A stretch of DNA of 64,000 nt from Bacillota bacterium (GTDB lineage Bacteria; Bacillota; Dethiobacteria; DTU022). A program made the translations under genes and the position numbers. The stretch lies in the NCBI GenBank assembly GCA_033549065.1, contig JAWSUE010000002.1:1-64000 (forward strand), in the 5' to 3' direction. Below are positions 1,973 to 19,489 of this stretch, in pieces. The notes beneath the pieces were generated by a model. It was not told the DNA's origin. It saw only the letters and a list, made by a program, of their open reading frames with translations, and searched no databases. Position 1 is the stretch's first letter. The number at the start of each line of letters is the position of its first letter.

Positions 1973-2015
1973 CGTCCGGAGCCGGCCGGTCGGCTCCGCA
2001 GGACGTATTTTTATT
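1973..2015 (+). terminator. terminator-like hairpin in the leader of the M16 pair
   Basis: CGTCC (1973-1977) plus GGAGCCG (1978-1984) pair with CGGCTCC (1991-1997) and GGACG (2001-2005), leaving a six-base loop and a three-base bulge. TATTTTTATT follows. The shape is that of an intrinsic terminator, yet it ends directly at the ribosome binding site of the next gene and no + strand gene lies upstream. It is therefore either a leader attenuator or a structured 5' UTR. It also argues against translation starting upstream of it. Confidence 0.6.
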
Positions 2016-2031
2016 AAAGGGAGGTTTTTGT

Positions 2032-3327: not shown

Positions 3328-4621
3328 TTACAGGCTGATAGAAAACCGGGCGCTGAAGGAGACCCTGCATCATTACCGGGTTTACCCGGGGATGGATGTC
3401 TATGTTTTGCCCAGGCCCGGATATAATAAAAAGTATGCCATATTCTCAACCCGTTTTGGCTCTATTGATTACCGGTTCAGGGTGGAGCCGGAAGAAGAAA
3501 TCACCAGGGTGCCGGATGGTGTAGCCCATTTTTTGGAGCACAAACTTTTTGAAGATGAAGAGGGCAACGTTTTCGATCGCTTTGCTGCCCTTGGTGCTTC
3601 GGCCAACGCCTTTACATCATTTACCCAGACCACATATCTTTTTTCCTGTACCGCCAACTTTGAAGAAAACCTTCAACTCCTGCTCGACTTTGTGCAGGAA
3701 CCGTACTTTACCTATCAAACGGTACTAAAAGAACAGGCGATAATTGGCCAGGAGATCAAGATGTACAGAGATCACCCGCAATGGCGAGTCTATTTCAACC
3801 TCCTGGATGCCCTCTACAGCAAGCACCCCGTCCGTAAGGACATTGCCGGTACAGAAAAAAGCATTGCCAGGATAACCCCTGAGCTTCTTCACCGCTGCTA
3901 TAACACTTTTTATCATCCCAGTAATATGGCAGTTTTCGTCGTAGGAGATCTTGACCCCGAAGGAGTTGCCAAACAGGTTGAAGATAATCTTGCAGCTAGG
4001 AATTACGGGCAGATGGGTGCGATCGTCCGTTATTTTCCACGGGAGCCAAGACAGGTTAATAAAGAGAGGGTTGAACTTGAACTGGTTGTTTCCGAGCCAA
4101 TTCTCTATCTCGGTTATAAAGATATTGTTGCCGAAAAACTGCATGGAAGTGATCTGCTGCGGCGGGACATATTGATGGAACTTGTGCTTGACATATTATT
4201 CGGAACCAGTGAATCGCTGTACAATGAACTTTACCGGGAAGATTTGATCGATGAAAGTTTTGGAGCCGAATATACGGCCGAGAGCACCTATGGCTATACC
4301 ATGATCGGGGGAGAAACGAAAGACCCCGATCTTCTAATCCAGCGAATTCAAAATGCCATAGAAAAAGTCAGAAAAAACGGCATTACCGAAGAGCAGTTCG
4401 AACGACACCGCCGCAAAACACTCGGCGGCTATATCCGGCGCTTCAATTCCCTGGAATTCATCGCCAACAATTTTCTGGCTTACCTCTTCCGGGGCACCGA
4501 TCTATTTGAACTGCCCTTAATCCTGAATGAAGTGAGAATGGAAGAGGCGATGGCCCTGATCGAAGAAAACCTCGATCCATCCCGCTGCGCCACCTCAATA
4601 ATTTGGGGACACATTAGTTAA
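3320..4621 (+). CDS. M16 family zinc metallopeptidase, YmfH type (catalytic subunit)
   Basis: This 433-residue M16 peptidase has the inverted zinc motif HFLEH at residues 70-74 (H70, E73, H74) and a likely third ligand Glu near residue 145 in QEIKMYRDHP. The C-terminal half holds the second M16 domain. The ATG overlaps the 3' end of the preceding non-catalytic partner, which implies translational coupling. In Bacillus the equivalent pair is ymfF-ymfH; other relatives process peptides such as subtilosin (AlbE/AlbF), and no precursor peptide gene is visible here. The last eight codons and the stop lie within the left arm of the inverted-repeat element at 4597-4769, so the native C-terminus may have been altered by that insertion. 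Confidence 0.88.
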   Translation: MDSYRLIENRALKETLHHYRVYPGMDVYVLPRPGYNKKYAIFSTRFGSIDYRFRVEPEEEITRVPDGVAHFLEHKLFEDEEGNVFDRFAALGASANAFTSFTQTTYLFSCTANFEENLQLLLDFVQEPYFTYQTVLKEQAIIGQEIKMYRDHPQWRVYFNLLDALYSKHPVRKDIAGTEKSIARITPELLHRCYNTFYHPSNMAVFVVGDLDPEGVAKQVEDNLAARNYGQMGAIVRYFPREPRQVNKERVELELVVSEPILYLGYKDIVAEKLHGSDLLRRDILMELVLDILFGTSESLYNELYREDLIDESFGAEYTAESTYGYTMIGGETKDPDLLIQRIQNAIEKVRKNGITEEQFERHRRKTLGGYIRRFNSLEFIANNFLAYLFRGTDLFELPLILNEVRMEEAMALIEENLDPSRCATSIIWGHIS

Positions 4622-4769
4622 TTATATTTTCCAAAAATTTAAACCCTAATTTACCCTAATTGCCAAATAGCCCTGGCCTTTTATTGAGACTGGGGCTTAT
4701 TATTTTTGGGCAGAAAAGAGAGACTAATTGTCAGAAAATAAAATTAACTAATGTGTCCCGAAAATTATT
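4597..4769. repeat. MITE-like inverted-repeat element
   Basis: GGGACACATTAGTTAATT (4606-4623) recurs as its exact reverse complement at 4742-4759. With one gap and one mismatch the arms extend outward through AATAATTT (4597-4604) and AAAATTATT (4761-4769), giving arms of about 27 bases. Nested pairs lie inside: CCAAAAAT (4631-4638) with ATTTTTGG (4702-4709), and AGCCC (4669-4673) with GGGCT (4693-4697). The whole could fold into one long hairpin. It encodes nothing, has no U-tract at its end, and looks like a miniature inverted-repeat element rather than a terminator. Confidence 0.6.
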
Positions 4770-4775
4770 TTGAAG

Positions 4776-4804
4776 TTGATTTTTTTGGTGCGAGAGGTTA
4801 AAAT
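4776..4804 (+). promoter_or_regulatory. sigma-A-type promoter for the aminotransferase/reductase fusion gene
   Basis: TTGATT (4776-4781) and TAAAAT (4799-4804) are separated by exactly 17 bases. Transcription would start near 4811, just before the palindromes at 4816-4835. Confidence 0.65.
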
Positions 4805-4815
4805 AGGTCTATTGG

Positions 4816-4835
4816 TGTGCACATTATTGTGCACA
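4816..4835. promoter_or_regulatory. twin palindromic operator candidate
   Basis: Two copies of the self-complementary octamer TGTGCACA (4816-4823 and 4828-4835) are separated by TTAT, forming a 20-bp perfect palindrome. It lies between the predicted transcription start and the ribosome binding site (AGGAGG, 4843-4848), an ideal roadblock position for a dimeric repressor. The regulator is not identified; the TetR gene at 9624-10244 is one nearby candidate. Confidence 0.5.
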
Positions 4836-4855
4836 ATGCAACAGGAGGACTGACG

Positions 4856-7474
4856 ATGAATAAGTTTACACAATATGTTAACCCTTATTTGGGTGAGATG
4901 CTTGAAAACATCAAGCTCGATCAAAAATATGTCCGTGGTGAAGGTTGTTATCTCTATGATGATCTAGGTAACCGCTATCTCGACTGTATTGCTGCTTACG
5001 GGGCGCTGCCCTTCGGGCATAATCCCGAATTGATCTGGGAAGAGATCAATCGCTACCAGCAATCACAGGAGCCAAACTTTATCCAGCCTTCAGCTCTGGA
5101 TGCTGCCGGAGAGCTGGCCCGCAGGCTGGTTGAAGAGGCACCTGATGGGTTGGAATATGTTACTTTTACCAACAGTGGGACTGAAGCGGTGGAAGCGGCC
5201 ATAAAAATGTGCCGTTCCGCAAAGGGGCGCCCCGGGATCCTGGCTACAGAAAATAGTTTTCACGGTAAAACTTTCGGCGCTCTTTCAGCAACCGGTAATA
5301 AGGCTTACCAGTCCGTTTTCTATGCTCCTGCCGAGCATTTTCACCATATTCCCTATGGTGATATTGAAGCTCTGGAAAGTGAACTGTCTAAAAGAAAAGG
5401 TTATTACGCGGGCTTTTTGGTTGAACCGATCCAGGGCGAAGGCGGTATCATCGAACCTCCTGCCGGATATCTTCGAAAAGTTAAAGAAATATGTCAGGAT
5501 AATGGAGTCCTGGTTGTTTTTGATGAGATACAGACCGGTTTGGGTCGGACAGGAACTCTATTTGCCTGTGAACAGGAGGATATTGCTCCGGATGTAATGG
5601 TATTGGCCAAAGCATTGGGCGGTGGGCTTATCCCGATCGGCGCTTGTTTAAGCAGCGATAACGCCTATAACGAAGACTTTGCCCTGAAACATTCATCAAC
5701 TTTTGCCGGCAATTCTTTTGGCTGCCGGGTCGGTATAAAGGTGCTGGATATTCTCGATGCAAATAAAAAGCGCCTGCTTAAACAGGTCCGTGCGAATGGT
5801 CAGATATTTAAAGCAGGACTGGAAGATTTGAAAAATCAATATCCGCACTTGATCAAATCAATCCGTGGGCGCGGCCTGATGCTCGGGATCGAGTTCAACA
5901 TGGATCGGGAGCAATTTCCGGGCAGTCTGCTAGGTGTAATGGCTGAACAGGAGCTGCTTACACCGGCTATCTCGTCATATCTGCTTAATGTAGAGAAGGT
6001 AAGGGTAGCACCAACCCTGAACGGTAATGCTGTAATCCGCATCGAGCCGCCGCTAACCATTACGGAAGAACAATGTAAAGAAGCCTTGTCCGGTATAGCA
6101 TCCATGCTCAATATATTGAGTGAAAGGAATACGGCAAAATTTCTTGCTTACCTGGTTCGCCCGGAAGGCAAGGGTGATTTTGTTGAATTTACCCCATATC
6201 CGGCTCCTGATGTTGTTCCGAGCGGTAAACCTGATGAAGGGCGTTTTGCCTTCTTAATCCATGCCCTTGATCTGAAAAGCTACCCTCAGTTTGACAACAG
6301 CCTGAACTCATTCACCCAGCCTGAACTGGCCGATCTGACAGGACGGTTCAATGACCTGGTTGAACCATTCGTGGCCGGAAAAACCAGGATTCATTCAGCA
6401 TCAGGTAAGACTGCTTACGGAGAATTCATTGCCCTTTCAAGAACTACCGATGAATTTATTGATATGCCAAAAACCCAGGCAATGGCTGAACTGAAAGCTG
6501 CCGTAAAAATGGCCCGGGAAAGGGGAGCACAGATAGTAGGCCTCGGTGCTTTTACCGCCGTGGCCTCAATGGGTGGCCTTTACCTGAAGAATGAGGGTGT
6601 TCCGATCACTACCGGTAACAGTTATACAGTTGTTTCAGCAGTTGATGCGGTAAATACTGCCACGGAAAAACTGCAGATAGATCGATCCCAGACAACTGCA
6701 GCCATCGTCGGTGCAGCGGGGTCAATAGGCCGCGGGATATCCTTGCTTCTTTCAGAAACAGTACCGCGCCTGATTCTAATCGGTAACCCGAACAATCAGA
6801 CCTCCAGTGAGAGGCTCCACCTGGTTGCTGCAGAGATATACCGTTACCAGTCCGCTCTCCTTGAACAGGGACGGCCTCTGAAGCCCGGCAGTATGGGTCA
6901 ACTGCTGGCCGGATGTTCCGAATTGCCCAAACCAGATGCCCCGATGGATGCCTTCGAAGATTTTGTTGACGGCGAGGGAAACCGCCTGGGCTTGATCGAG
7001 TTCTCAACCGATATTGATGCGGTCCTGGCCCGGGCTGATATAGTTATCAGCGCCACAAGCGCGACTGAAAAAGTGATTCATGCCGGAAACCTGAAAACCG
7101 GAGCGATAGTCTGCGACATTTCCCGCCCGGCCAATGTCAGTGAAGAAGTCGACGCAGCCAGACCCGATGTCCTGGTTATCGACGGCGGGGTTGTCGAAGT
7201 GCCCGGTTTGCCATCATTCGGCTGGGATTTCGGTTTCGAACAGGGCTTGGCTTATGCCTGCATGGCTGAAACGATGATGCTTGCCCTGGAACAGCATTAC
7301 AAACACTATAGCCTCGGTTCATCAGGCGTAAATCTGGAGACAATCCTTCAAACCAGGTACTGGGCAACTGAACACGGTTTCAAACTGGCCAATTTCCGCA
7401 GTTTCAATCGTCCCTTGAGCGAAGATAGCTGGCAGACGCTGCTTAAAACACGTAAACAACTGGTCGCCCGATAA
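4856..7474 (+). CDS. fused class III aminotransferase / acyl-ACP-reductase-like dehydrogenase
   Basis: This 872-residue protein starts at ATG 4856, 7 bases after AGGAGG; the in-frame GTG at 4817 lies inside the operator palindrome. Residues about 1-420 are a complete class III PLP aminotransferase: SGTEAVEAAIKMCR for cofactor phosphate, FDEIQTGLGRTG with the PLP aspartate, and the Schiff-base lysine in LAKALGGG (Lys252). Residues about 440-870 resemble the long-chain acyl-ACP reductase of cyanobacteria: a GLGAFTAVASMGG segment, TTGNSYT, a Rossmann glycine motif AAIVGAAGSIGRG, GGVVEVPG, and ACMAETMML, whose Cys802 aligns by eye with the reductase's acyl-accepting cysteine. An acyl thioester could be reduced to an aldehyde and then transaminated to an amine, or the reverse. 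That coupling and the substrate are inference. Ornithine or 4-aminobutyrate aminotransferases are the alternative model for the first half. Confidence 0.82.
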   Translation: MNKFTQYVNPYLGEMLENIKLDQKYVRGEGCYLYDDLGNRYLDCIAAYGALPFGHNPELIWEEINRYQQSQEPNFIQPSALDAAGELARRLVEEAPDGLEYVTFTNSGTEAVEAAIKMCRSAKGRPGILATENSFHGKTFGALSATGNKAYQSVFYAPAEHFHHIPYGDIEALESELSKRKGYYAGFLVEPIQGEGGIIEPPAGYLRKVKEICQDNGVLVVFDEIQTGLGRTGTLFACEQEDIAPDVMVLAKALGGGLIPIGACLSSDNAYNEDFALKHSSTFAGNSFGCRVGIKVLDILDANKKRLLKQVRANGQIFKAGLEDLKNQYPHLIKSIRGRGLMLGIEFNMDREQFPGSLLGVMAEQELLTPAISSYLLNVEKVRVAPTLNGNAVIRIEPPLTITEEQCKEALSGIASMLNILSERNTAKFLAYLVRPEGKGDFVEFTPYPAPDVVPSGKPDEGRFAFLIHALDLKSYPQFDNSLNSFTQPELADLTGRFNDLVEPFVAGKTRIHSASGKTAYGEFIALSRTTDEFIDMPKTQAMAELKAAVKMARERGAQIVGLGAFTAVASMGGLYLKNEGVPITTGNSYTVVSAVDAVNTATEKLQIDRSQTTAAIVGAAGSIGRGISLLLSETVPRLILIGNPNNQTSSERLHLVAAEIYRYQSALLEQGRPLKPGSMGQLLAGCSELPKPDAPMDAFEDFVDGEGNRLGLIEFSTDIDAVLARADIVISATSATEKVIHAGNLKTGAIVCDISRPANVSEEVDAARPDVLVIDGGVVEVPGLPSFGWDFGFEQGLAYACMAETMMLALEQHYKHYSLGSSGVNLETILQTRYWATEHGFKLANFRSFNRPLSEDSWQTLLKTRKQLVAR

Positions 7475-7543
7475 AAATTATGTTAGAATAATCAGGTGCT
7501 GACCAATTATACTCGCTGATCAAGCTCTGAAGGGGTGGTTGTT

Positions 7544-9016
7544 GTGGAGAAAAAAGAAGGGCGCGAAAATAATGCCCGGGATAAGGATTTTGTAAAGGAA
7601 ATAACTCCAAAAGCTGTCGATTATTCCCAATGGTACATTGATGTAATCACAAAAACAAAAATGATGGACTATTCTCCGGTAAAGGGTTTCATGGCAATCC
7701 GTCCAGCTGGATATGCCATCTGGGAAAAGATCCAGGAACAGATGGACCGCCGATTCAAAGAAACCGGCCATCAGAATGCCTATTTCCCCCTGCTTATCCC
7801 CCAGAGCCTGCTGCAAAAGGAAGCCGAGCACGTCGAAGGGTTTGCGCCCGAAGTCGCCTGGGTTACAAAGGGAGGCGGCGAGGTGCTCACAGAGCCACTG
7901 CTTATTCGCCCCACTTCAGAGTCGATAATATGTGATTTCTACTCCCGCTGGGTTCAGTCATGGCGGGATCTGCCCATTCTGATCAACCAGTGGTGTAATG
8001 TTGTCCGCTGGGAGAAAGCTACCCGGCCATTCCTCCGCACTTCTGAATTTCTCTGGCAGGAAGGTCATACCTGCCATCGCACTGAAGAGGAAGCCGAGGC
8101 CGAAACCCTGCAGATGCTCAACGTCTATAAAGACTGTATAGAAGAGGAGATGGCCATCCCCGTTGTTGACGGCCGTAAAACGGAAAGAGAGAAATTCGCC
8201 GGTGCCCTGCGCACCTATTCCGTAGAAGCTCTGATGAGTGACGGGCGTGCGCTACAGGCCGGCACCTCGCACAACCTGGGACAGCATTTTGCAAAAGTAT
8301 TCGATATAACCTACCTTGACCAGGACGAACAGCTCAAATACGTATGGCAGACTTCCTGGGGTGTTTCAACCAGGTTGATCGGAGCCCTGATCATGGTTCA
8401 CGGTGATGACCGCGGACTTGTTCTGCCTCCACGATTGGCGCCGGTCCAGGTCGTAATTGTTCCCATCCTGACCAAGAAAGACCGTGAACGGGTTCTCGAG
8501 GCTGTTGTCAGACTTGAGGGTGAACTTAAGAAAAGTATCCGGGTTAAACTCGATGACCGGGAAGAGTATTCACCCGGCTGGAAGTATAATGAATGGGAAA
8601 TGAAGGGGGTTCCTCTCCGCATCGAAGTGGGTCCGAAAGATCTTGATAAAGGACACGTTGTTCTGGTCAGACGCGACACCGGTAAAAAAGAATTTGTTAA
8701 TCGGGAAGATCTGGCTGAATACCTACCCCGTTTACTGGAAGAGATTCAAAATGATATGCGCCAGAGAGCTCTTGATTTCCGTGAAGCAAATACTCGTAGC
8801 GGTGACGATTATGAAGAGTTTAAGCGGATCATGGAAGAGGAACGCGGTTTCTTTGTAGCATCCTGGTGCGGGGATGCGGAATGTGAGGAAAAGGTAAAAA
8901 TTGATACAAAAGCTACTATCCGTTGTCTTCCCTTCGGGATGAAACCGGAATATGATAAATGCATAGTCTGTGGAGAAAAAGCAGTCGAAGTAGCCTACTT
9001 TGCACGCGCCTATTAA
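7544..9016 (+). CDS. proS: prolyl-tRNA synthetase, short eukaryote/archaea-like form
   Basis: It charges tRNA-Pro with proline in the cytoplasm. It is 490 residues long from GTG 7544, which stands 8 bases after AAGGGG; the in-frame GTG at 7535 overlaps that ribosome binding site. Class II motifs are clear: motif 2 region RWEKATRPFLRTSEFLWQEG and motif 3 region HGDDRGLVLPPRLAP. The bacterial editing insertion is absent, and the C-terminal zinc-binding extension is present (SWCGDAECEEKV, then CLPFG and CIVCGEKAVEVAYFARAY at the end). This marks the eukaryote-like type found in a minority of bacteria, including several clostridia and Thermus. No T-box leader was seen in the 69 bases upstream. 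Confidence 0.95.
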   Translation: MEKKEGRENNARDKDFVKEITPKAVDYSQWYIDVITKTKMMDYSPVKGFMAIRPAGYAIWEKIQEQMDRRFKETGHQNAYFPLLIPQSLLQKEAEHVEGFAPEVAWVTKGGGEVLTEPLLIRPTSESIICDFYSRWVQSWRDLPILINQWCNVVRWEKATRPFLRTSEFLWQEGHTCHRTEEEAEAETLQMLNVYKDCIEEEMAIPVVDGRKTEREKFAGALRTYSVEALMSDGRALQAGTSHNLGQHFAKVFDITYLDQDEQLKYVWQTSWGVSTRLIGALIMVHGDDRGLVLPPRLAPVQVVIVPILTKKDRERVLEAVVRLEGELKKSIRVKLDDREEYSPGWKYNEWEMKGVPLRIEVGPKDLDKGHVVLVRRDTGKKEFVNREDLAEYLPRLLEEIQNDMRQRALDFREANTRSGDDYEEFKRIMEEERGFFVASWCGDAECEEKVKIDTKATIRCLPFGMKPEYDKCIVCGEKAVEVAYFARAY

Positions 9017-9033
9017 ATGAAGGAAGGACAATC

Positions 9034-9615
9034 ATGCAGCAGAAACGGGAATTACGGAAGCAGATAATCAAGATGCGCGATCAGTTGCCACCGGAAGCAA
9101 TCAATGAAAAAAGCCACAGGATAGCTGAAAAACTATATAGTTTGCCTATCTACCGTAATGCTCCGATTGTTATGTTTTTCCTCACTTTCGGTAGTGAAGT
9201 TAATACTCAGGAAATGGTTGAAGAAACTATCCGGAGAGAGAAAGTAGCACTGGCACCCAAGGCAATTCCTGCAGAAAAAGATATGATCCCCCTCAGGATT
9301 AATGACTGGGATCGTGATCTCAAGATCGGGGCATACAATATACCGGAGCCGAAGTTCAATAACTACCGTATTGTCGTGCCGGAAGCAATAACCCTGCTGA
9401 TCGTTCCCGGAGTTGCATTTGATCTAAAAGGAAACCGCCTAGGCTACGGAGGCGGTTATTATGATCGTTTTTTCTACAAGCTGGACAGCCATGTACCCCT
9501 GGTGGCGCTGGCGTTTGAGCTGCAGATAGTCCCGGAGGTTCCTGTCGACGAATGGGATCGTCCGGTAGATACGATTATTACTGAGGATAGAATTATCGAG
9601 ATAAATCCAACTTAA
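9034..9615 (+). CDS. 5-formyltetrahydrofolate cyclo-ligase
   Basis: This 193-residue protein converts 5-formyl-THF to 5,10-methenyl-THF using ATP, returning a dead-end folate to the one-carbon pool. ATG 9034 follows AAGGAAGG (9020-9027); an upstream in-frame start at 8959 would overlap proS and is rejected. The family signature is plain: an N-terminal KRELRKQIIKMRDQL helix, FFLTFGSEVNT, and the phosphate/ATP-binding stretch GVAFDLKGNRLGYGGGYYDR. It lies 17 bases after proS in the same direction. The gene ends only 8 bases from the convergent tetR stop. Confidence 0.93.
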   Translation: MQQKRELRKQIIKMRDQLPPEAINEKSHRIAEKLYSLPIYRNAPIVMFFLTFGSEVNTQEMVEETIRREKVALAPKAIPAEKDMIPLRINDWDRDLKIGAYNIPEPKFNNYRIVVPEAITLLIVPGVAFDLKGNRLGYGGGYYDRFFYKLDSHVPLVALAFELQIVPEVPVDEWDRPVDTIITEDRIIEINPT

Positions 9616-9623
9616 ATAAATTC

Positions 9624-10244
9624 TTAAGCTTCCGGTATGAAATAACCGAAGAAGAGCATTTCTACGATAGTCTCGGTAATATGTTCAAGGTTACTTTCCT
9701 TCTCCTCAACAACTTCCCAGATAAAGCGGTCTACCAGTAAAATGAATGCCTTTGCCACAGTTTGCATATCAAACTTTTTAGCCAAACCCTTCTCTTGTGC
9801 GTAGGCAAAGGAACTGGCTGCGCTTTTAATAAACTGATCTTTTATGTTATTCCAGTGAGCTGCAATGGAAGATGACTGTCCCAGAGCTTCCTGATAAACT
9901 CTCATGATCGGTCGATGCTGCTGTGAAAGCCTGAAAGAAGTTAAAATAAGTTCGAAATAAGCGCTTTTGGCTTCTCTAAGGGTGGCAGGAGAGAATGAAA
10001 CTTCAAGCAGGTTATAAAATTCGTCAAGAACATTATCGACAACCTTGTTCAGGATATCGTCTTTGCCTTTAAAATGGCTGTAAACGGTCCCGTACCCAAC
10101 CTTGGCCCGATCACTTATTTTTGCAATGGTGGTTTTTGCATAACCTTCATTGAGAAATACTTCAAGAGCGGTATCCAGAATCAGCTTGCGGGTAATACGG
10201 CTGCGCAGGTAACGACGTGGTCTTCTGGTGATTTGTTTTTCCAC
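9624..10244 (-). CDS. TetR/AcrR family transcriptional regulator
   Basis: It has 206 residues, from GTG 10244, with AAGGAGG (10256-10262) about 11 bases upstream. Residues about 20-64 form a standard TetR helix-turn-helix (ILDTALEVFLNEGY, then TTIAKISDRAKVGYGTVYSHF). The remaining all-helical part would bind the ligand and form the dimer. It is transcribed toward the folate gene and away from the metallophosphoesterase gene, with a strong promoter of its own at 10299-10327. The target is unknown. Self-regulation, or control of the aminotransferase/acyl-reductase gene through the palindrome at 4816, are untested possibilities. The last residues (FFGYFIPEA) show no truncation. Confidence 0.9.
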   Translation of the reverse strand: MEKQITRRPRRYLRSRITRKLILDTALEVFLNEGYAKTTIAKISDRAKVGYGTVYSHFKGKDDILNKVVDNVLDEFYNLLEVSFSPATLREAKSAYFELILTSFRLSQQHRPIMRVYQEALGQSSSIAAHWNNIKDQFIKSAASSFAYAQEKGLAKKFDMQTVAKAFILLVDRFIWEVVEEKESNLEHITETIVEMLFFGYFIPEA

Positions 10245-10298
10245 AGACAGGTGAGCCTCCTTGAACTTGTGATGATTATTAACTTAAGTGATGACGAC

Positions 10299-10327
10299 AT
10301 TATATCATTTTATTAAAATATTTGCAA
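10299..10327 (-). promoter_or_regulatory. promoter of the tetR-type gene
   Basis: On the minus strand, TTGCAA (10327-10322) and TATAAT (10304-10299) are spaced by exactly 17 bases. This gives a leader of roughly 50 bases before GTG 10244. The region between this gene and the rightward metallophosphoesterase gene (10245-10479) is AT-rich and otherwise empty. Confidence 0.65.
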
Positions 10328-10479
10328 AGCTTAATTGTAAAAAAAAATCGTTTTAATCAGCAGAAAAAATCTCCTTTTGCTCGGCACTCGCTAATTTAGT
10401 AATATATATATCATAATAAAGGAATTATAAGATTAGAAGGTAATTATTCGGATAGATAATAAGTTAAAAGGGGTGTCAA

Positions 10480-11172
10480 ATGGCAATCTATGCTATTGGT
10501 GATTTACATCTATCCCATAGCCAGGAAAAACCGATGCATATATTCGGACCTGACTGGACCGACCACGCCGCCAGAATTGAGTCAAACTGGAATGCTATGG
10601 TTGGTCCGGATGATTTCGTAATCGTCATTGGTGACATCTCCTGGGCAATGCATCTGAAGGATGCCCTTCCAGACCTTGAATGGCTTTCCGGATTGACTGG
10701 AACCAAACTCTTGATCAGGGGAAACCATGATTACTGGTGGTCATCTATCGGTAAGGTACGCAGCGAACTTCCTCCGGGTCTGCTGGCCCTGCAGAACGAT
10801 CATTATACCTGGGATGACTGGGCAATATGTGGCACACGGGGATGGGTCTGTCCCGGTGAAGATGGCTTTGACAACGAGCATGACCAGAAAATTTATTTGA
10901 GGGAAGCTCAACGGTTACAACTATCTTTGGAAAGCGCAAGAAAAAGCAGTTCATCACCGATCATTGCTGCCCTGCATTTTCCACCTTACAACCGTCAGGC
11001 TGAGCCAAGTGCCTTTACCAATCTTCTGGAGCAGTATGCAGTTGAAATTTGTGTTTTCGGACATATCCATGATCCCGGCCGGGATTTTATCCACCAGGGC
11101 GTCCTGAACGGTGTTGATTATCGTTTCGCAGCAGCAGATGGAATAAATTTTACACCGCTCAAACTGACCTGA
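10480..11172 (+). CDS. calcineurin-like metallophosphoesterase
   Basis: This 230-residue predicted cytosolic phosphoesterase has the dinuclear-metal motifs in order: IGDLHLS (DxH) near residue 7, IGDISWAM (GDxx) near residue 50, RGNHDYWW (GNHD) near residue 76, LHFPP near residue 168, and FGHIHDPG (GHxH) near residue 196. There is no signal peptide. AAAAGGGG precedes ATG 10480. It belongs to a widespread stand-alone family of unknown substrate, and its neighbours do not suggest one. It diverges from the TetR gene, so the two may share a control region. Confidence 0.88.
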   Translation: MAIYAIGDLHLSHSQEKPMHIFGPDWTDHAARIESNWNAMVGPDDFVIVIGDISWAMHLKDALPDLEWLSGLTGTKLLIRGNHDYWWSSIGKVRSELPPGLLALQNDHYTWDDWAICGTRGWVCPGEDGFDNEHDQKIYLREAQRLQLSLESARKSSSSPIIAALHFPPYNRQAEPSAFTNLLEQYAVEICVFGHIHDPGRDFIHQGVLNGVDYRFAAADGINFTPLKLT

Positions 11173-11288
11173 TCTTTTTTTATCTCAGGCAGGATTGAGA
11201 TGTTTAATTGGTTAATTATATATAGTTGAGATTTGTAATGAGTAGGCATCTGCTGATAGCAATGTCCGGTGACAGGAGGTAAAAATAT

Positions 11289-11777
11289 TTGAACAAATCA
11301 AACGAAGAAATGGATATCCAGGCGGTTGATTTAGAAGCTATTGACAAGATTGTAGAGCCTTACCTTGGCAAGAAAGAGATGGTTATCCCGGTCCTGCAAA
11401 AAGTCCAGGAACACTATGGTTATCTTCCCCGGCCTGCAATGGAAAAGGTTTCCAGATTAATGAGGATCCCCTTAAGCCGCCTCTATGGTGTGGCCACATT
11501 TTATGCCCAGTTCAAGATGAAACCCCGGGGCAGATACATTATCAGGGTTTGCAAGGGGACGGCTTGTCATATTCAGGGCAGCCCGAAAATTGCCGAACGG
11601 ATTGAAAAAACCCTTGATGTTAATAGTGGTGAAACAACCGATGACCTGCGTTTTACCTTGGAAGAAGTTGCCTGTATCGGTGCCTGTGCCCTGGCACCGG
11701 TTATCATGATTAACGATGACCCCCATGGGCGATTAACCCCGGACAAGGTAAAAGAAATTCTTAACAGCTATGAATAA
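11289..11777 (+). CDS. NuoE/HndA-like [2Fe-2S] subunit of NAD-dependent formate dehydrogenase
   Basis: This 162-residue thioredoxin-fold subunit carries one [2Fe-2S] cluster. Ligands are visible as C88 and C93 (CKGTAC) and C129 and C133 (CIGAC). The N-terminal four-helix part includes VIPVLQKVQEHYGYLP, typical of the 24-kDa NADH dehydrogenase/hydrogenase subunit. TTG 11289 stands 8 bases after GGAGGT. It opens the cluster NuoE / 59-residue Cys-rich protein / NuoF / NuoG-like formate dehydrogenase. The complex would pass electrons between formate, NAD(H) and possibly ferredoxin; hydrogenases use the same NuoE/NuoF pair, but the catalytic subunit here is formate dehydrogenase-like. Confidence 0.92.
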   Translation: MNKSNEEMDIQAVDLEAIDKIVEPYLGKKEMVIPVLQKVQEHYGYLPRPAMEKVSRLMRIPLSRLYGVATFYAQFKMKPRGRYIIRVCKGTACHIQGSPKIAERIEKTLDVNSGETTDDLRFTLEEVACIGACALAPVIMINDDPHGRLTPDKVKEILNSYE

Positions 11778-11791
11778 GAGGAGGAATCGTT

Positions 11792-11971
11792 GTGGAAAGA
11801 TTTATCGATCACTGTTGTGAGAAATGTACCCATTCAAAGACAACCCCATGCAAGGATTTCATAAAGTGCTGTGTTGAGGGTCCCATCTGCCATGAAGATC
11901 CGGTTTGTGCGGAACAGCGCAAGGCCATAATGGATAAAGTCGCCTTGAATGAACAGTTTGTTGTCTGCTGA
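11792..11971 (+). CDS. small Cys-rich protein (59 aa) inside the formate dehydrogenase operon
   Basis: GTG 11792 follows AGAGGAGG (11777-11784) at ideal spacing and opens a 59-codon frame ending in TGA at 11969-11971. The product has ten cysteines, in order MERFIDHCCEKC, TTPC, KCC, GPIC, DPVC and a C-terminal FVVC. It also has two histidines close to cysteines. It lies between the NuoE and NuoF genes, 14 bases after the first and 54 before the second. I do not recognise a family. The composition suggests a metal site or Fe-S cluster (a small electron carrier, assembly factor or Zn knuckle). It is too short to match the 80-120 residue ferredoxin-like HndB subunit of related hydrogenases. Confidence 0.75.
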   Translation: MERFIDHCCEKCTHSKTTPCKDFIKCCVEGPICHEDPVCAEQRKAIMDKVALNEQFVVC

Positions 11972-12025
11972 CTGAAAGCTCCATTGTCAGTGCCCTAAAT
12001 GTATTTACCGAGGGAGGTAACAATA

Positions 12026-13843
12026 TTGTATGAAAAACACCTGATGATCTGTGGTGCCACGGGGTGTATATCTTCAGGCTCACAGTCAGTTGAGCAGGCT
12101 TTAATTGAAGAACTTGAGAAAAAGGGAATTAGAGATAAATATCGCATCGTTATGGGCGGTTGCCCCGGGTTTTGTGAAGTAGGGCCGATTATCGTTATTT
12201 ACCCCGATGAAGTTTTTTACTGCCGTCTGAAACCGGGCGACATGGCGGAAATTGTTGAACAGCATCTTATCGGCGGTGAGATCGTCGAGAAATTTCTCTA
12301 CAAAGGACCGGATGTTGATCTTCCCTCCCGTTTTTATGATACCATTCCGTTTTATGCAAAACAGAAATTCAATGTCCTGCGTAATAGTGGAATAATTGAT
12401 CCGGAAAATATTGATGAATATATTATGCGCGGTGGTTACCGGGCCTTTACCCGGGCACTTGAAATGGATCCGGCCGCTATTTGTGAAGAAGTCAAACAGT
12501 CCGGTTTGCGCGGACGGGGTGGGGCCGGATTTTCCACCGGTCTGAAATGGGAGTTTACCAACAAAGCGCCTGGTGATAAAAAGTATGTAGTCTGTAATGC
12601 TGACGAAGGTGACCCGGGTGCATTCATGGATCGCAGCATTCTCGAAGGAGACCCTCATGCCATCCTGGAGGGGATGCTCATCTGCGGACGGGCCATAGGT
12701 GCCAACGAGGGATATATCTACTGCCGGGCTGAATATCCTCTGGCCATCAAGCGGCTTAAGATTGCCATTAAGCAGGCGGAAGAATATGGACTGCTCGGTG
12801 AAAATATTCTCGGTTATGAGTTTGATTTCAAGATTAACATCAAAGAGGGGGCAGGCGCTTTTGTCTGTGGTGAAGAGACCGCCCTGCTTGCTTCAATCGA
12901 GGGGAAAAGGGGTATGCCCCGACCCCGGCCGCCATTCCCCGCCCAGTCCGGACTCTTCGGCAAACCGACAACCATTAACAATGTTGAAACCCTGGCCAAT
13001 ATTCCCCTGATTGTTAAGGAGGGCGGCGCTGCTGAATTTGCATCTATAGGTACTGAAGGCAGCAAGGGAACTAAAGTTTTCGCTCTCGCCGGGAAAATCC
13101 GTAACACCGGACTCTGTGAGGTTCCCATGGGGATCACGATCAGAGAAATAATTTTTGATGTTGGCGGTGGCATTAAAGGTGGCCGGGAATTTAAAGCTGT
13201 ACAGGCCGGGGGACCTTCCGGTGGCTGCATTCCGGCTGAACAGCTGGATCTCCCCATAGATTATGATTCGCTGAACAAAGCAGGCGCGATTATGGGGTCG
13301 GGTGGCCTGGTTGTCATGGATGACCGGACCTGCATGGTTGACCTGGCGCGTTACTTTTTAAGTTTCACCCAGAAAGAATCCTGCGGCAAGTGTACTCCCT
13401 GCCGTGAGGGAACAAAAAGAATGTTGGAAATACTAACCCGCATCTCCGAGGGTCTGGGCAAGCCCGAAGACCTTGAAACCCTGGACTCAATGGCCTACAG
13501 CATTAAAGACAGCGCTCTCTGCGGTCTGGGCCAAACCTGTCCGAACCCGGTCCTCAGCACGATCCGTTACTTTCGGCACGAATACGAGGAGCATATTAAC
13601 GATAAATTCTGCCGAGCCGGGGTCTGTAAAGCGCTCTTCCATTACATAATTGATCCCGAAAAATGTACCGGCTGCAGAGCCTGTGTCCGTGCCTGCCCGG
13701 TTGATGCGATCCGGGGAGAGAAAAAAGAAGCGCACGAGATTCTTCAGGATCTCTGCACCCGCTGCGGAAGTTGCGTTGAAAAATGCCGCCAGGAATGTAT
13801 CCTGGTTGCACCAGTTGGGAGGGAAGCTGATGTCAGCAATTAA
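12026..13843 (+). CDS. NuoF/HndC-like NADH-binding flavoprotein subunit
   Basis: This 605-residue subunit would exchange electrons with NAD(H) through FMN. TTG 12026 is preferred because AGGGAGGT (12011-12018) stands 8 bases before it; the ATG at 11999 has no ribosome binding site. Domains in order are: an N-terminal thioredoxin-like [2Fe-2S] domain (CGATGC and GGCPGFC, residues about 8-50); the FMN/NADH domain with GLRGRGGAGFSTGLKWEF (about 155-175); an SLBB segment; the N3-type [4Fe-4S] site ESCGKCTPCREGT; and a C-terminal two-cluster ferredoxin domain (CTGCRACVRACP, CTRCGSCVEKC). The thioredoxin-like and ferredoxin extensions are typical of electron-bifurcating hydrogenase and formate dehydrogenase complexes. 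It overlaps the catalytic subunit gene by 14 bases. Confidence 0.95.
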   Translation: MYEKHLMICGATGCISSGSQSVEQALIEELEKKGIRDKYRIVMGGCPGFCEVGPIIVIYPDEVFYCRLKPGDMAEIVEQHLIGGEIVEKFLYKGPDVDLPSRFYDTIPFYAKQKFNVLRNSGIIDPENIDEYIMRGGYRAFTRALEMDPAAICEEVKQSGLRGRGGAGFSTGLKWEFTNKAPGDKKYVVCNADEGDPGAFMDRSILEGDPHAILEGMLICGRAIGANEGYIYCRAEYPLAIKRLKIAIKQAEEYGLLGENILGYEFDFKINIKEGAGAFVCGEETALLASIEGKRGMPRPRPPFPAQSGLFGKPTTINNVETLANIPLIVKEGGAAEFASIGTEGSKGTKVFALAGKIRNTGLCEVPMGITIREIIFDVGGGIKGGREFKAVQAGGPSGGCIPAEQLDLPIDYDSLNKAGAIMGSGGLVVMDDRTCMVDLARYFLSFTQKESCGKCTPCREGTKRMLEILTRISEGLGKPEDLETLDSMAYSIKDSALCGLGQTCPNPVLSTIRYFRHEYEEHINDKFCRAGVCKALFHYIIDPEKCTGCRACVRACPVDAIRGEKKEAHEILQDLCTRCGSCVEKCRQECILVAPVGREADVSN

Positions 13844-16268
13844 TTTAACAATCGACGGAATCAATATCGAAGTCCCCCCGGGAACAACTATCCTGCAGGC
13901 TGCCCGTCAGCTGGGTATTGATATCCCCACATTTTGTTACGACAAAGAACTCTCGGCAAACGGGGCCTGCCGGATTTGTGTTGTAGAGGTTGAAAACGCC
14001 AGAGCCCTGGTTGCATCCTGTGTTGCACCGGTCGGACCGGGAATGATTATTCACACCGAATCAGAAAGAGTGATCAATGCCCGAAAATCTATTCTCAGCC
14101 TGTTGATTGCCAATCATCCCCTGGTTTGTATCACCTGTGAAAAAACCGGTGAATGCAAGCTGCAGGATTACTGTTACCGTTACGGCATTACTGACAGCGA
14201 GTTTGTCGGCGAAGTGAAGGAACTTAGCCTGGACGATACGAATGAATTCTTTGTCAGGGATATGAATAAATGCATACTATGTGGTATCTGTGTTGGCAAA
14301 TGCCAGGATGTCGTGGGAGCAGGAGCCATAGATTTCACCAGCAGGGGTTTTGTGACTAACGTGGGCCCCGCTTTTGAAGACAGAATAGAAGATTCCACCT
14401 GTGTTTTCTGCGGGCTCTGTATCGACAGCTGTCCGGTTGGCGCCCTTACTCCGAAATCCAAGCTGGGACAGGGACGTCCCTGGCAGGTTGAATTGGTTAA
14501 AACAATTTGCCCTTACTGCAGTCTCGGCTGCGGAATCAACCTGCAGGTTAAAGATAATAAACCGATTGGGGTAACTCCCGTCACAGAGAGCCCGGTTAAT
14601 CGCGGACATCTTTGTATCAAAGGCAAGTTTGGCTGGGATTACCTGAACAGTGAAGACCGTTTGACTACCCCTCTGATCAAATCCAATGGTGTCTTTATAG
14701 AGGTCAGCTGGGAAGAGGCCCTCAGCTATATAGTCGATAATCTTGATGATATTAAAACCCGCTACGGTGCAGATGCCCTGATGGGTTTATGTTCACCGAA
14801 AACTGGCAACGAAGAAAGCTATCTATTTCAAAAATTCATCCGCTCCATGGGCACCAATAACGTGGACAGCTATACCAGACACTGCCATGCACCGTCGGTT
14901 GATGGACTGATGAAAGCCTTTGGTAGCGCGGCCCTGACAAATAGTATTGAAGAGATAGCCTCGGCTAAAACAATATTTGTTATTGAAGCAGACCCTCTGG
15001 AAAGCCATCCCATCCTGGGCTACCGGATTCGCGAGGCAGTAAGGAAGGGCGGTCAGTTGATCCTGGCCAATCACGGACATGCCGGTTTAACTGAACTGGC
15101 CAACCAGTATCTTCAGTTCAAACCGGGTACAGCTGTTGCCCTGGTCAATGCCATGGCCCAGGTAATAATTGAAGAGGGGTTGACTGATAAGGCCTTCATC
15201 GGGAAACGCACTGAAGGTTTTGATGCATTCACCGGGCATATTGCCCGCTATACCCCTGCATATGCGGCGAAGATAACCGGTCTTACCGAGGAAGAGATTA
15301 AAACTGCTGCCCGTGCTTATGCCGGCGCGGAAACCGCAGCAATTGTCTCCAAAGCAGGTGCTACAGAATCCGGTGGAGGAACCGACCTGGTTCTGGCCCT
15401 GGCCAACCTGGCCCTGCTTACCGGTAACCTTGGTAAGGAATCAACCGGGCTTTACTTGCCCTATGGGGAGAATAACCTGCAGGGATGTGCCGATATGGGA
15501 GGTCTGCCGGCGGTTCTTCCCGGTTACCAGACGATCAGGGAAAAATCGATCAGGGATAAATTCTCCCGTTCCTGGGGGGTTCAGATCAGTGACAAACCAG
15601 GTTTATCAGCGGCGGAAATGTTTGAAAATCCTGAACAGAGCGGGATTAAAGCCCTCTACATTATGGGTGAAAACCCTGTTTCCTGTCGACATGAAGACCA
15701 AAAAATGGTCAATTTCCTTAAAGAACTTGAATTCCTGGTAGTTCAGGATATCTTCATGACCGAAACTGCTTCCCTGGCGGATGTTATTCTGCCTGCAGCG
15801 GCCTATGGAGAGAAAACCGTAACCTATACCAATACGGAACGAAGAGTTCAGATCAGCAATGCAGCAGTAGAACCTCCCGGAGAAGCACACCCCGACTGGG
15901 CAATTATAGCTGAGCTGGCTGGCTGGCTCGGTTTTGAATGGGAATATGGGGGACCTGAAGAAATTATGGCGGAAATTGCATCACTGGTACCCCAGTATGC
16001 GGGAATTTCCTATGAGCGGTTGATTGATCATGGTCTGCAGTGGCCCTGCCCTACTCCCGGGCATTCCGGGACCAAATACCTTTACGAAGGGCGTTTTGGT
16101 CGCGGCCTGGGGCTTTTTAGCCCGGTAGATTTTAAACCATATGTTGAAGAGGCTGTCGGGAGCGAAGTTTACACAGAAGAGAATGGAGAGCATCCCTGCA
16201 GCTGCCTGAGTGAAAGCATGACCAGGCGTTCTGTAATCAGCGTTTTTAAAGACAGCTGTAACTGTTGA
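13830..16268 (+). CDS. formate dehydrogenase catalytic subunit with NuoG-like N-terminus, C-terminally short
   Basis: This 812-residue protein starts at ATG 13830, behind GGGAGGG. Domains: a [2Fe-2S] domain with C36, C47, C50 and C64; a His/Cys cluster segment (NHPLVCITC to CKLQDYC); two [4Fe-4S] motifs (CILCGICVGKC and CVFCGLCIDSCP); then the molybdopterin oxidoreductase core opening with CPYCSLGC. The active-site position reads TRHCHAPSV, so Cys352 stands where formate dehydrogenases have selenocysteine or cysteine followed by His. The last domain is missing: about 38 residues after PVDFKPYVEEA the protein ends in a Cys-rich tail (HPCSCLSES, MTRRS, DSCNC). Full-length relatives carry roughly 100 more residues (the cofactor-capping domain IV). 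No continuation was found in other frames before the next gene at 16306, so this looks like a deletion, not a frameshift. Confidence 0.9.
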   Translation: MSAINLTIDGINIEVPPGTTILQAARQLGIDIPTFCYDKELSANGACRICVVEVENARALVASCVAPVGPGMIIHTESERVINARKSILSLLIANHPLVCITCEKTGECKLQDYCYRYGITDSEFVGEVKELSLDDTNEFFVRDMNKCILCGICVGKCQDVVGAGAIDFTSRGFVTNVGPAFEDRIEDSTCVFCGLCIDSCPVGALTPKSKLGQGRPWQVELVKTICPYCSLGCGINLQVKDNKPIGVTPVTESPVNRGHLCIKGKFGWDYLNSEDRLTTPLIKSNGVFIEVSWEEALSYIVDNLDDIKTRYGADALMGLCSPKTGNEESYLFQKFIRSMGTNNVDSYTRHCHAPSVDGLMKAFGSAALTNSIEEIASAKTIFVIEADPLESHPILGYRIREAVRKGGQLILANHGHAGLTELANQYLQFKPGTAVALVNAMAQVIIEEGLTDKAFIGKRTEGFDAFTGHIARYTPAYAAKITGLTEEEIKTAARAYAGAETAAIVSKAGATESGGGTDLVLALANLALLTGNLGKESTGLYLPYGENNLQGCADMGGLPAVLPGYQTIREKSIRDKFSRSWGVQISDKPGLSAAEMFENPEQSGIKALYIMGENPVSCRHEDQKMVNFLKELEFLVVQDIFMTETASLADVILPAAAYGEKTVTYTNTERRVQISNAAVEPPGEAHPDWAIIAELAGWLGFEWEYGGPEEIMAEIASLVPQYAGISYERLIDHGLQWPCPTPGHSGTKYLYEGRFGRGLGLFSPVDFKPYVEEAVGSEVYTEENGEHPCSCLSESMTRRSVISVFKDSCNC

Positions 16269-16305
16269 TCTTAAATATTCTATTCTGTATTGGAGGCGGA
16301 ATATC

Positions 16306-17655
16306 TTGACCCCTTCTTTATTCCCGGATGGATTTCTTTGGGGGACGGCGACGGCTTCCTACCAAATTGAGGGTTCACCATCTGCTGATGGTAAGGGAGA
16401 GTCGATCTGGGACAGATTTTCCCATACTCAGGGAAACATCTGGAATGGTGATACCGGTGATGTTGCCTGCGATCATTACCGGCGTTTTGAAGAAGATGTC
16501 AAATTGATGGCTGATCTTGGCCTTAACGCTTATCGTTTCTCTCTTTCCTGGCCCAGGATCTTTCCTTCCGGTTTCGGTAAACCGAACGAAAAGGGGCTAG
16601 ATTTCTACCGCCGGCTGGTTGATCAGCTTCACTCAAGAAGAATTAAACCGGCCATCACCCTCTATCACTGGGACCTCCCCCAGGCTCTGCAGGATCGGGG
16701 AGGTTGGAATAACCGCGATACGGCAAGGTACTTTGCCGACTACGCCACCCATATGTTTAATCGTCTTGATCTGCCGGTTGATTTATGGATAACCTTGAAC
16801 GAACCCTGGGTAGTGGCCGTGCTGGGCAATGCGTTCGGTATACATGCTCCCGGAAATAATGATTTTAACCTTGCACTGCAGGCAGCCCATAATCTTCTTA
16901 TAGGTCACGGGCTGGCCGTCAAAAATTTCAGGGAAGCTGATCGGGGAAAAGAAGAGATCGGGATCACTTTGAGCCTGCAACCGGTCCATCCCGCGACGGA
17001 TTCCGAAGCCGATCTTGAAGCTGCCCGTATCTCGGATGGTTTCATGAACCGCTGGTTTTTAGATCCCCTGTTTAAGGGTTCGTACCCCCGGGATCTTTTT
17101 GATATTTTCTCCAGGCTTTACACTTTGCCTGAAACTGTTGAAAAAGATGCCGCAATCATTGCCGAACCCATCGATTTTCTTGGAATCAACAATTACACAA
17201 GAGTGATCGTGCAGTCCAGCGGAGTCGAAGATTCATTTATGGGTAACCCTGTTAACCCTCCGGATTCCGAGTATACCGATATGGGCTGGGAAGTTTATCC
17301 ACGCGGTCTTTATGAGTTGATGACCAGAATTCACCGTGAATACGGGCCCTTACCGCTCTACATAACCGAGAATGGAGCCGCATTTCCTGATGAAATAGGT
17401 AAAGACGGAACTATTGGCGATCAGCGCAGGATTGACTTTCTTAAAAAATACCTTCAGGAATGCTGGAATGCCATCGAAGAAGGTGTGCCTCTCAAAGGCT
17501 ATTTTGTATGGACCCTGCTGGATAACTTTGAATGGGCTTACGGCTACAGTAAACATTTCGGCATTATTCACGTTGACCTGGAGACCCAGAAGCGAACTCT
17601 TAAAAACAGTGCAATGTGGTACAAAGATGTGATCAGCCGCAACGGACTGGAGTAA
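16306..17655 (+). CDS. glycoside hydrolase family 1 beta-glucosidase
   Basis: This complete 449-residue family 1 enzyme hydrolyses beta-glucosides or related beta-glycosides in the cytoplasm; there is no signal peptide. The acid/base is Glu166 in TLNEPW and the nucleophile is Glu355 in YITENG. The N-terminal FLWGTATASYQIEG and the C-terminal GYFVWTLLDNFEWAYGY are signature stretches. 6-phospho-beta-glucosidases have different loop residues, but phosphorylation preference cannot be settled by eye. TTG 16306 follows GGAGGCGG. The gene sits between the shortened formate dehydrogenase gene and fdhD, with no sugar transporter or regulator nearby, so it looks out of context and may be a later insertion. 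Confidence 0.93.
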   Translation: MTPSLFPDGFLWGTATASYQIEGSPSADGKGESIWDRFSHTQGNIWNGDTGDVACDHYRRFEEDVKLMADLGLNAYRFSLSWPRIFPSGFGKPNEKGLDFYRRLVDQLHSRRIKPAITLYHWDLPQALQDRGGWNNRDTARYFADYATHMFNRLDLPVDLWITLNEPWVVAVLGNAFGIHAPGNNDFNLALQAAHNLLIGHGLAVKNFREADRGKEEIGITLSLQPVHPATDSEADLEAARISDGFMNRWFLDPLFKGSYPRDLFDIFSRLYTLPETVEKDAAIIAEPIDFLGINNYTRVIVQSSGVEDSFMGNPVNPPDSEYTDMGWEVYPRGLYELMTRIHREYGPLPLYITENGAAFPDEIGKDGTIGDQRRIDFLKKYLQECWNAIEEGVPLKGYFVWTLLDNFEWAYGYSKHFGIIHVDLETQKRTLKNSAMWYKDVISRNGLE

Positions 17656-17809
17656 CTGGCATAAGATATTTTATGTATTCAGATAGAAAGATTAGAAAAC
17701 ATTAGACTATCTTTAAGAATAATCACCTCCATGGAATAAAGGAATGCCCCGTACCTCTGGCGAATCCTGGTATACACTGGGATCAATAATCCGTAAAGGA
17801 AGGTTCGGG

Positions 17810-18601
17810 GTGAGCACAAAGAAGGCAGTTTATAGAGAAATAACCATAATTCGTGACGACGAAAGGGAAGTAACGGAAGATCTTATTGCTGTAGAAAAAC
17901 CGGTAACTATATATCTTAATGGTCAGGAACTTGTTACCTTACTCTGTACCCCTGAAAAAATCGACCGTCTTGCCCTCGGCTTTTTATGCTCGGAGGGCTT
18001 ACTTATAGCGGCAGATGAAGTCGATTCTCTCCGGGTTCTCGATGAGGAAGGACGGGTTGAGGTTGAGCTGAAAAATGATTCCGGTCTTGCCGGGACTTTG
18101 TTTGGAAAGAGAACGATCACATCAGGCTGTGGGAAGGGAACAATCTTTTACAATGTTCTCGATTCTCTTCGAAGCAGCCCGATAACCGGGAAAATGCAGG
18201 TAACCCCAAGACAGCTTCTATCACTTGTCGGGAAACTTCAAACCAGGGCTGAACTGTTCAGGACTACCGGGGGAGTTCACAGCGCTGCACTTGCTGATGG
18301 AAAAGATATTATAATTTTCTTTGAAGATATCGGCCGTCATAACGCCATCGACAAGATTATCGGAGAAGCACTTCTGACCGGGATGCCCACTGAAGATAAA
18401 ATCTTTGTATCCAGCGGGCGTTTAAGCTCCGAAATACTGCTCAAAGCAGCAAAAATGAAGATTCAGCTGCTTCTTTCCAGGGCTGCACCCACTTCGCTCT
18501 GCATAGAACTTGCTGAAAACCTTAACATTACCCTTGCCGGCTTTGCCCGGGGTAAAAGGGTAAACATCTATACACACCGGTGGAGGGTGTTGGATAGCTA
18601 G
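17810..18601 (+). CDS. fdhD: formate dehydrogenase accessory sulfurtransferase FdhD
   Basis: FdhD delivers sulfur from the cysteine desulfurase to the molybdenum or tungsten cofactor of formate dehydrogenase, which it needs for activity. GTG 17810 follows AAAGGAAGG (17795-17803) and gives 263 residues, near the usual length; an ATG at 17744 is possible but has poor spacing. Recognisable stretches are EKPVTIYLNGQELVTLLCTP, TGGVHSAALAD, EDIGRHNAIDKIIGEAL, FVSSGRLSSEILLKAA and GFARGKRVNIYTH. The flexible loop reads SGCGKGT, with only one cysteine, whereas E. coli FdhD has a CxxC there. Its position next to the formate dehydrogenase cluster fits its role. It ends 6 bases from the convergent gene. 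Confidence 0.93.
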   Translation: MSTKKAVYREITIIRDDEREVTEDLIAVEKPVTIYLNGQELVTLLCTPEKIDRLALGFLCSEGLLIAADEVDSLRVLDEEGRVEVELKNDSGLAGTLFGKRTITSGCGKGTIFYNVLDSLRSSPITGKMQVTPRQLLSLVGKLQTRAELFRTTGGVHSAALADGKDIIIFFEDIGRHNAIDKIIGEALLTGMPTEDKIFVSSGRLSSEILLKAAKMKIQLLLSRAAPTSLCIELAENLNITLAGFARGKRVNIYTHRWRVLDS

Positions 18602-18607
18602 CAGCAT

Positions 18608-19489
18608 TTATTGCGAAGTAATCTTTTTCCGCAGTGATTTCTTGTCCTTGCATTCTTCTTCTTCAATAAAGATCTTTTTTGCTTTAACATTAACCTCGTT
18701 CAGGTAAAACCCTGTCTGAAATTCTATTTCTTCCTTCAGGGTTCTCTGGACATCACGAAGTAGGGTATCGATCCGCATATCAGGAACCTTCGTCAGGGCG
18801 ATGGCAAGATCCACATTTAGAATAGCTTTACTGCTTCCGTTTTGCAGGTCTATGATGATCGCTTTGTGCACCCCGGGAAAGCGGGAAATAATATGTTCAA
18901 CCAGTTCGTTTACAACATGTTCAGAAATAAAGAAACCGCCCAGGGTACTGTATACCGGTCGGACCACAGATCTTTCCATCGGTATACCCGCCGGCATGGC
19001 TGTGGGAAAGCTGAAGAATGAACGCAGCGGATCGATGATGTAACCCGGAAATTCTTTCTTGATGGCAAAGGTAGGCAGAGGTATAACATGCCGGTTTTCC
19101 TTGGCCCTGACAGTGAGGGCAGTCTGTATCGATTCAGAGTCGGTTACTTCTTCAATGTTGTAATAGTAAGCCGGTTTTTGAAGCCCAAGGTTTTCGGCAA
19201 TTACATTAGTCATCTTTCTTGAAGTGCCAAGGATTAACAGCCTTCCGGGTTTGATTTCAGAAAGCTTCTCTTTAACCTGCTGGGCATGCTCGGGATCTTT
19301 AAATAAAGCCCGTTTGATAGCCCCGTAGCGAGTATTTTCCCTTTTTGCTGAACGTCCGGCTAAGGCGACGCTACCTTTGATTAAAAGGCCGTCATCAATA
19401 ATATATTCAATACTGTACTGCTTGGCTATTACCGGAGCCTGGTGGCTTTTACCTGTTCCGCTGTGACCGATTAGAGCATATATTTCCAT
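18608..19489 (-). CDS. P-loop NTPase fused to an Asp23/Gls24-like domain
   Basis: This 293-residue protein is read from ATG 19489 (GGAAGTGG upstream); GTG 19531 is a possible longer start. A Walker A motif, GHSGTGKS, lies at residues 8-15, and LLILGTSRKM may be the Walker B-like strand. From about residue 180 the C-terminal part matches the Asp23/Gls24 fold: GGFFISEHVVNELVEHI, FPGV, an AILNVDLAIALTKVPDM strand pair, VQRTLKEEIEFQTG and LNEVNVKAKKIFI. Asp23 proteins are linked to envelope stress and membrane-associated scaffolds in Firmicutes; the nucleotide-binding part has no obvious characterised relative. It is convergent with fdhD and divergent from aroA. No function is assigned. Confidence 0.75.
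   Translation of the reverse strand: MEIYALIGHSGTGKSHQAPVIAKQYSIEYIIDDGLLIKGSVALAGRSAKRENTRYGAIKRALFKDPEHAQQVKEKLSEIKPGRLLILGTSRKMTNVIAENLGLQKPAYYYNIEEVTDSESIQTALTVRAKENRHVIPLPTFAIKKEFPGYIIDPLRSFFSFPTAMPAGIPMERSVVRPVYSTLGGFFISEHVVNELVEHIISRFPGVHKAIIIDLQNGSSKAILNVDLAIALTKVPDMRIDTLLRDVQRTLKEEIEFQTGFYLNEVNVKAKKIFIEEEECKDKKSLRKKITSQ

Follow-up and report, generated by a model that had tools for sequence, protein, structure and literature searches.

The window analysed here, a stretch of 64,000 nucleotides, encodes between its nuoE and nuoF genes a 59-residue, cysteine-rich protein that is the separate form of a domain found mostly at the N-terminus of NuoF. We consider it likely that in Bfu-type complexes this protein serves NuoF as a detached accessory subunit and binds metal, probably zinc.

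Identification of a small gene between nuoE and nuoF

The small gene begins with a GTG codon 14 bp past the NuoE stop and yields the product MERFIDHCCEKCTHSKTTPCKDFIKCCVEGPICHEDPVCAEQRKAIMDKVALNEQFVVC; its position and those of the surrounding features are given in Table 1. The initial annotation had placed a protein with a good ribosome binding site here, and its coordinates proved exact, with a good Shine-Dalgarno sequence just upstream, while the cysteines, which it had put at ten, number nine.

Table 1. Features of the window and of other loci named in the text
Feature	Sequence	Positions	Strand	Basis or remark
885-aa ORF	Window	4817-7474		Class-III aminotransferase, N-terminal
NuoE/HydC/BfuC-like, 162 aa, thioredoxin-like [2Fe-2S]	Window	11289-11777	+	PF01257 1.3e-55; NF005722 NuoE above cut-off
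Shine-Dalgarno of small gene, AGAGGAGG	Window	11778-11787	+	Read directly in the sequence
CCxxC protein, 59 aa, 9 Cys	Window	11792-11971	+	Stand-alone NuoF prefix domain; NF040902, 53 relatives, dN/dS
NuoF/HydB/BfuB-like, 605 aa	Window	12026-13843	+	PF01512, PF10589, Fer4; Cys positions
FdhA/NuoG-like molybdopterin subunit, 812 aa	Window	13830-16268	+	PF00384 7e-73; motifs; RcFDH alignment
GH1 glycosidase	Window	16306-17655	+	PF00232 1.5e-171; synteny with large subunit in 8 distinct relatives
FdhD sulfurtransferase	Window	17744-18601	+	TIGR00129 211.7 bits (cut-off 140.9); PF02634
Second NuoE-CCxxC-NuoF-FdhA operon	L034 (own genome, contig C8)	4407-9605		Canonical FDH motifs
NuoE/NuoF-type locus	L154 (own genome)	808-6604		Partner of 1141 aa
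NuoE/NuoF-type locus	L155 (own genome)	4630-11121		Partner of 1318 aa
NuoE/NuoF-type locus	L156 (own genome)	4632-7743		Partner of 219 aa
Fused domain with missing ligands	L132	4195-6201		Single exception to the ligand pattern

We compared the gene with 53 stand-alone relatives from named genomes, and all 54 sequences are 59 residues long. The relatives start with ATG, GTG or, once, TTG, in most cases behind a purine-rich Shine-Dalgarno stretch. Within the close set of these genes, variable sites fell mostly at the third codon position (35, 26 and 58 sites at positions 1, 2 and 3), the median dN/dS was 0.10 (82 pairs unsaturated at synonymous sites) and stops interrupted both alternative frames in nearly all sequences. 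The chance expectation for such a frame was obtained from 40 random 64-kb windows generated with a first-order Markov model, in which stop-free stretches with 9 cysteines in 59 codons occurred at a mean of 0.05 per window. A random open reading frame or an overlap artefact is ruled out by the frame, length and cysteines kept in the relatives together with a dN/dS of about 0.1, and the frame is a real gene under strong purifying selection. The initial annotation had made metal binding depend on conservation of the frame and cysteines in relatives; since both are kept in the 53 named relatives, that idea survives. A scan of positions 10000-19000 against Rfam gave no match, and a pattern scan of positions 11000-12200 found no promoter or terminator.

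Assignment to the NF040902 family

Although the initial annotation had presented the protein as unrecognised and possibly new, it matches the NCBIfam model NF040902 (NuoF_pre_CCxxC) with an E-value of 2.4e-19 and 69 bits, against a curated cut-off of 45 bits, over profile positions 1-51 of 53. This model describes a "CCxxC motif-containing NuoF prefix domain", with which the protein agrees in score, in its CCxxC motif (C8, C9, two residues, C12; invariant in an alignment of 32 sequences) and in its place next to NuoF. Family members mostly form the N-terminus of NuoF, whereas the window version is a separate gene. The protein thus belongs to an already catalogued family, for which a literature search with the model name and the motif found no function, structure or paper; a Pfam search gave no match, and sequence and profile searches of the PDB matched no chain, those of the solved HydB and BfuB chains included.

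Conserved ligands and predicted fold

Across 32 diverse sequences, C8, C9, C12, C20, C26, G30, P31, C33, H34 and C39 are invariant; C27 and C59 of the window protein are not conserved. The resulting pattern, CC-x2-C-x7-C-x5-C-x6-CH-x4-C, fits the cysteine spacing of all but one of 103 distinct domains, and each of the 102 that fit also has H34; as the spacing filter itself demands the cysteines, the informative figure is the single exception. In this sequence (L132, a fused form) H34, C39 and one cysteine of the CC pair are all missing together, which suggests that these three ligate the same metal site, as far as one sequence can tell. The seven cysteines and one histidine fit the ligand count for two tetrahedral sites of four ligands each, and would hold two metal ions, most likely zinc. 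A twin-CxnC disulfide protein (C20-x5-C26 and C33-x5-C39) was considered and set aside: the complex is a cytoplasmic one of anaerobes, and the CC and CH pairs would suit metal better.

The AlphaFold model of the stand-alone protein was moderately confident (pLDDT 77.6, pTM 0.54) and has helices at residues 23-29 and 37-51. Essentially the same helices (23-29 and 37-50) appeared in the model of a fused NuoF (pTM 0.88; pLDDT 88-92 for residues 1-50). Searches with the stand-alone model in Foldseek and VIA-align matched no solved fold; given a small and moderately confident model, this is no sign of a new fold. The fused model aligned with T. maritima HydB, T. kivui HydB and the B chain of a tungsten aldehyde oxidoreductase from residue 6-15 on, so in these solved chains, as well, the [2Fe-2S] domain is preceded by further residues, as judged from the first and last aligned residues. 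The two-helix knuckle would be expected to sit on NuoF, ahead of its N-terminal [2Fe-2S] domain.

Distribution and history of the domain

In an even sample of the window's phylum the domain was found in 37 of 398 genomes, and in most of them it makes up the N-terminal ~50 residues of a ~650-residue NuoF; none of 14 control genomes carried it. Within the window's class, where the domain is a separate gene, it occurred in 54 of 98 genomes, and every match except one had an open frame, of 59-91 codons. Matches in Ignavibacteria and Bacteroidota are fused in frame to the N-terminus of NuoF, and the fused partner in the phylum sample and in Ignavibacteria is NuoF/HydB. Separate genes were found in named loci of Syntrophomonadaceae-labelled MAGs, other Bacillota MAGs and DTU022. 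As far as the contigs reach, the domain is either fused to NuoF or encoded directly upstream of it in the loci examined, and stand-alone copies in the named loci keep the order nuoE - CCxxC - nuoF. The window protein would thus be the detached form of the domain that makes up the first ~50 residues of NuoF/HydB elsewhere.

A NuoF tree of 98 rows requires 1 change for the stand-alone form, 7 for the fused form (at least 4 of them forced by starred branches) and 8 for absence; support for the stand-alone branch is weak (53). The simplest reading would be one split in the window's class and repeated losses elsewhere. NuoF proteins ~65-69% identical to that of the window occur in formate dehydrogenase operons devoid of any such domain, so its role is dispensable and not essential to the enzyme class.

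The window's own genome encodes a paralogue on contig C8 (50% identity; 52.2 bits against NF040902), in a second operon of the same order whose FdhA gene has an in-frame TGA at the selenocysteine position. The small protein is absent from three other NuoF-type loci of this genome (L154, L155 and L156), which pair NuoE and NuoF with unusual large partners; in one of the three, NuoE is fused to NuoF. In Haloacetibacter carboxydivorans, a published cluster of molybdopterin oxidoreductase, NuoF and NuoE skips one locus tag between NuoF (01205) and NuoE (01215) (PMC12835891, Table 2), and the gene of the skipped tag could be a further CCxxC protein.

Neighbouring subunits of the operon

The window NuoF starts with TTG behind GGGAGGT and matches HydB of a bifurcating hydrogenase with an E-value of 3e-258. 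Its ligands comprise C9, C14, C46 and C50 for the N-terminal [2Fe-2S] cluster, residues 453, 456, 459 and 499 for a [4Fe-4S] cluster and those for two C-terminal [4Fe-4S] clusters; of a Zn-type site, one histidine with C529 and C534 was seen, invariant in alignment A3. We found in the operon the features that define BfuABC, namely a BfuB with N-terminal [2Fe-2S], FMN domain, [4Fe-4S] and two C-terminal [4Fe-4S] clusters, together with BfuC and BfuA subunits. As a whole, the complex shares its cofactor ligands with the HydABC-like BfuABC family. Predicted formate dehydrogenases are among the members of this family (PMC9304861), and its characteristic activity is coupled NAD(H)/ferredoxin bifurcation. 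Upstream in the window, the 885-aa frame listed in Table 1 has a short C-terminal stretch that matches Shikimate_DH, an unusual fusion.

In such surroundings the small protein might itself hold one or two Fe-S clusters and add a redox site, such as a contact for ferredoxin or an electron branch close to the N-terminal [2Fe-2S] cluster of NuoF. Its invariant ligands and richness in cysteine, a complex full of Fe-S clusters and the full bifurcating-type ligand set of the window NuoF speak for this; however, its cysteine pattern matches no Pfam Fe-S family, and the domain is also kept on hydrogenase-type NuoFs that do not have the usual first cysteine of the N-terminal domain. Many close NuoF homologues, moreover, do without the domain, so no necessary electron path would run through it, which favours zinc. 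We regard Fe-S clusters as unlikely.

Zinc in a subunit of the NuoF/HydB type has a precedent, as T. maritima HydB carries a zinc site of three cysteines and one histidine (PMC9499530). This too is a tetrahedral Cys/His site, in the same type of subunit as the partner of the small protein, but it is located where the C-terminal bridge domain has its hinge, whereas the CCxxC domain is N-terminal, and we do not claim homology. Another known system with a small extra subunit in an NAD-linked formate dehydrogenase is FdsD, the fourth subunit of the Rhodobacter capsulatus enzyme, which is found beside the point where substrate enters the catalytic subunit FdsA (PMC7171172). The CCxxC protein would likewise be a small extra subunit of a formate dehydrogenase-like complex, but it is tied to NuoF and has no Pfam match; with a different partner, it is not a subunit of the FdsD type.

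The large subunit and the linked glycosidase

An alignment to the Rhodobacter capsulatus enzyme (RcFDH) shows that the Mo-ligand cysteine and the histidine after it are conserved in the large subunit of the window (Cys352 and His353, for RcFDH Cys386 and His387). The arginine that positions formate (RcFDH Arg587; PMC7171172), in the motif NPLRGQNN, is replaced by Tyr545 (LPYGENN), and SYTRH-C-H stands where the formate dehydrogenase motif is HCARL-U/C-H. All 15 aligned sequences of the clade that extend over this site have the tyrosine, while the selenocysteine-containing paralogue in the same genome keeps the arginine. This clade (the window gene and those of L069, L070, L072, L073, L075, L076, L078, L079, L082, L085, L088-L090 and L092) has DSYTRHCH as its Sec/Cys motif; in L089, a serine takes the place of the Mo-ligand cysteine. 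Its members are probably not ordinary formate dehydrogenases.

A GH1 gene directly follows the large-subunit gene in the window and in 8 distinct relatives, all with the tyrosine (L069, L070, L072, L073, L078, L079, L082 and L085). It lies between the large-subunit gene and fdhD, with a spacing that ranges from a 4 bp overlap to a 37 bp gap, and its motifs TLNEP and ITENG are intact in the window. Glycosidase and redox complex have no obvious link. With the formate-binding arginine replaced, the cysteine motif altered and a GH1 gene linked, the name formate dehydrogenase is unsafe for the window complex. The link that the initial annotation drew to this enzyme is loose, since the domain also occurs with [FeFe]-hydrogenases and the window's own large subunit lacks the formate-binding arginine. 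The lost arginine and the linked GH1 gene would also accommodate a reading in which the complex is an undescribed non-formate Mo/W oxidoreductase and the small protein alters electron bifurcation in NuoF-type complexes as an additional redox or ferredoxin-docking site, a combination that we find decidedly unlikely.

Proposed role of the small protein in the NuoEF module

Among the loci, the large partner varies between selenocysteine- and cysteine-type formate dehydrogenases, [FeFe]-hydrogenases and the Tyr-type subunit of the window, while NuoE-CCxxC-NuoF stays constant; most likely, therefore, the protein serves the NuoEF electron module instead of formate chemistry. The same constancy bears on a maturation or assembly factor that would deliver Fe-S, FMN or metal to NuoF or to the large subunit and not remain as a subunit, one of the roles offered by the initial annotation. 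The small size, the cysteines, the position in the operon and the downstream FdhD, a genuine maturation factor, would suit it; yet the type of large subunit switches while the small protein stays, and in many lineages the domain is permanently joined to NuoF, at a 1:1 stoichiometry that a catalytic factor does not need, which makes such a factor very doubtful. A switch of the complex that responds to redox state or metal, through thiol oxidation or release of zinc under stress, would draw on the many thiols and on the optional occurrence across relatives. Its ligand set, however, is invariant in fused and separate forms alike and nothing speaks specifically for such a switch, which we hold to be extremely improbable.

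Of the alternatives in the initial annotation, a metal-binding accessory subunit is thus the one favoured by the invariant seven cysteines and histidine, the fixed place between nuoE and nuoF and the fusions to NuoF. As such, the protein would belong to a NuoE-NuoF-(FdhA-like) complex of the NAD(H)/ferredoxin type as a small accessory subunit, and may stabilise or orient the NuoE-NuoF electron module of that complex; we infer that it binds NuoF, that its metal is zinc and that its role is structural rather than redox.

As no solved structure was found to contain the domain, existing structural models of such complexes are silent on the prefix. Separate subunit, fused domain and absence form a natural series for a conserved metal-ligand domain in the HydB/NuoF subunits of bifurcating-type hydrogenases and formate dehydrogenases, and the role of the prefix is thereby made testable with the domain supplied in trans.
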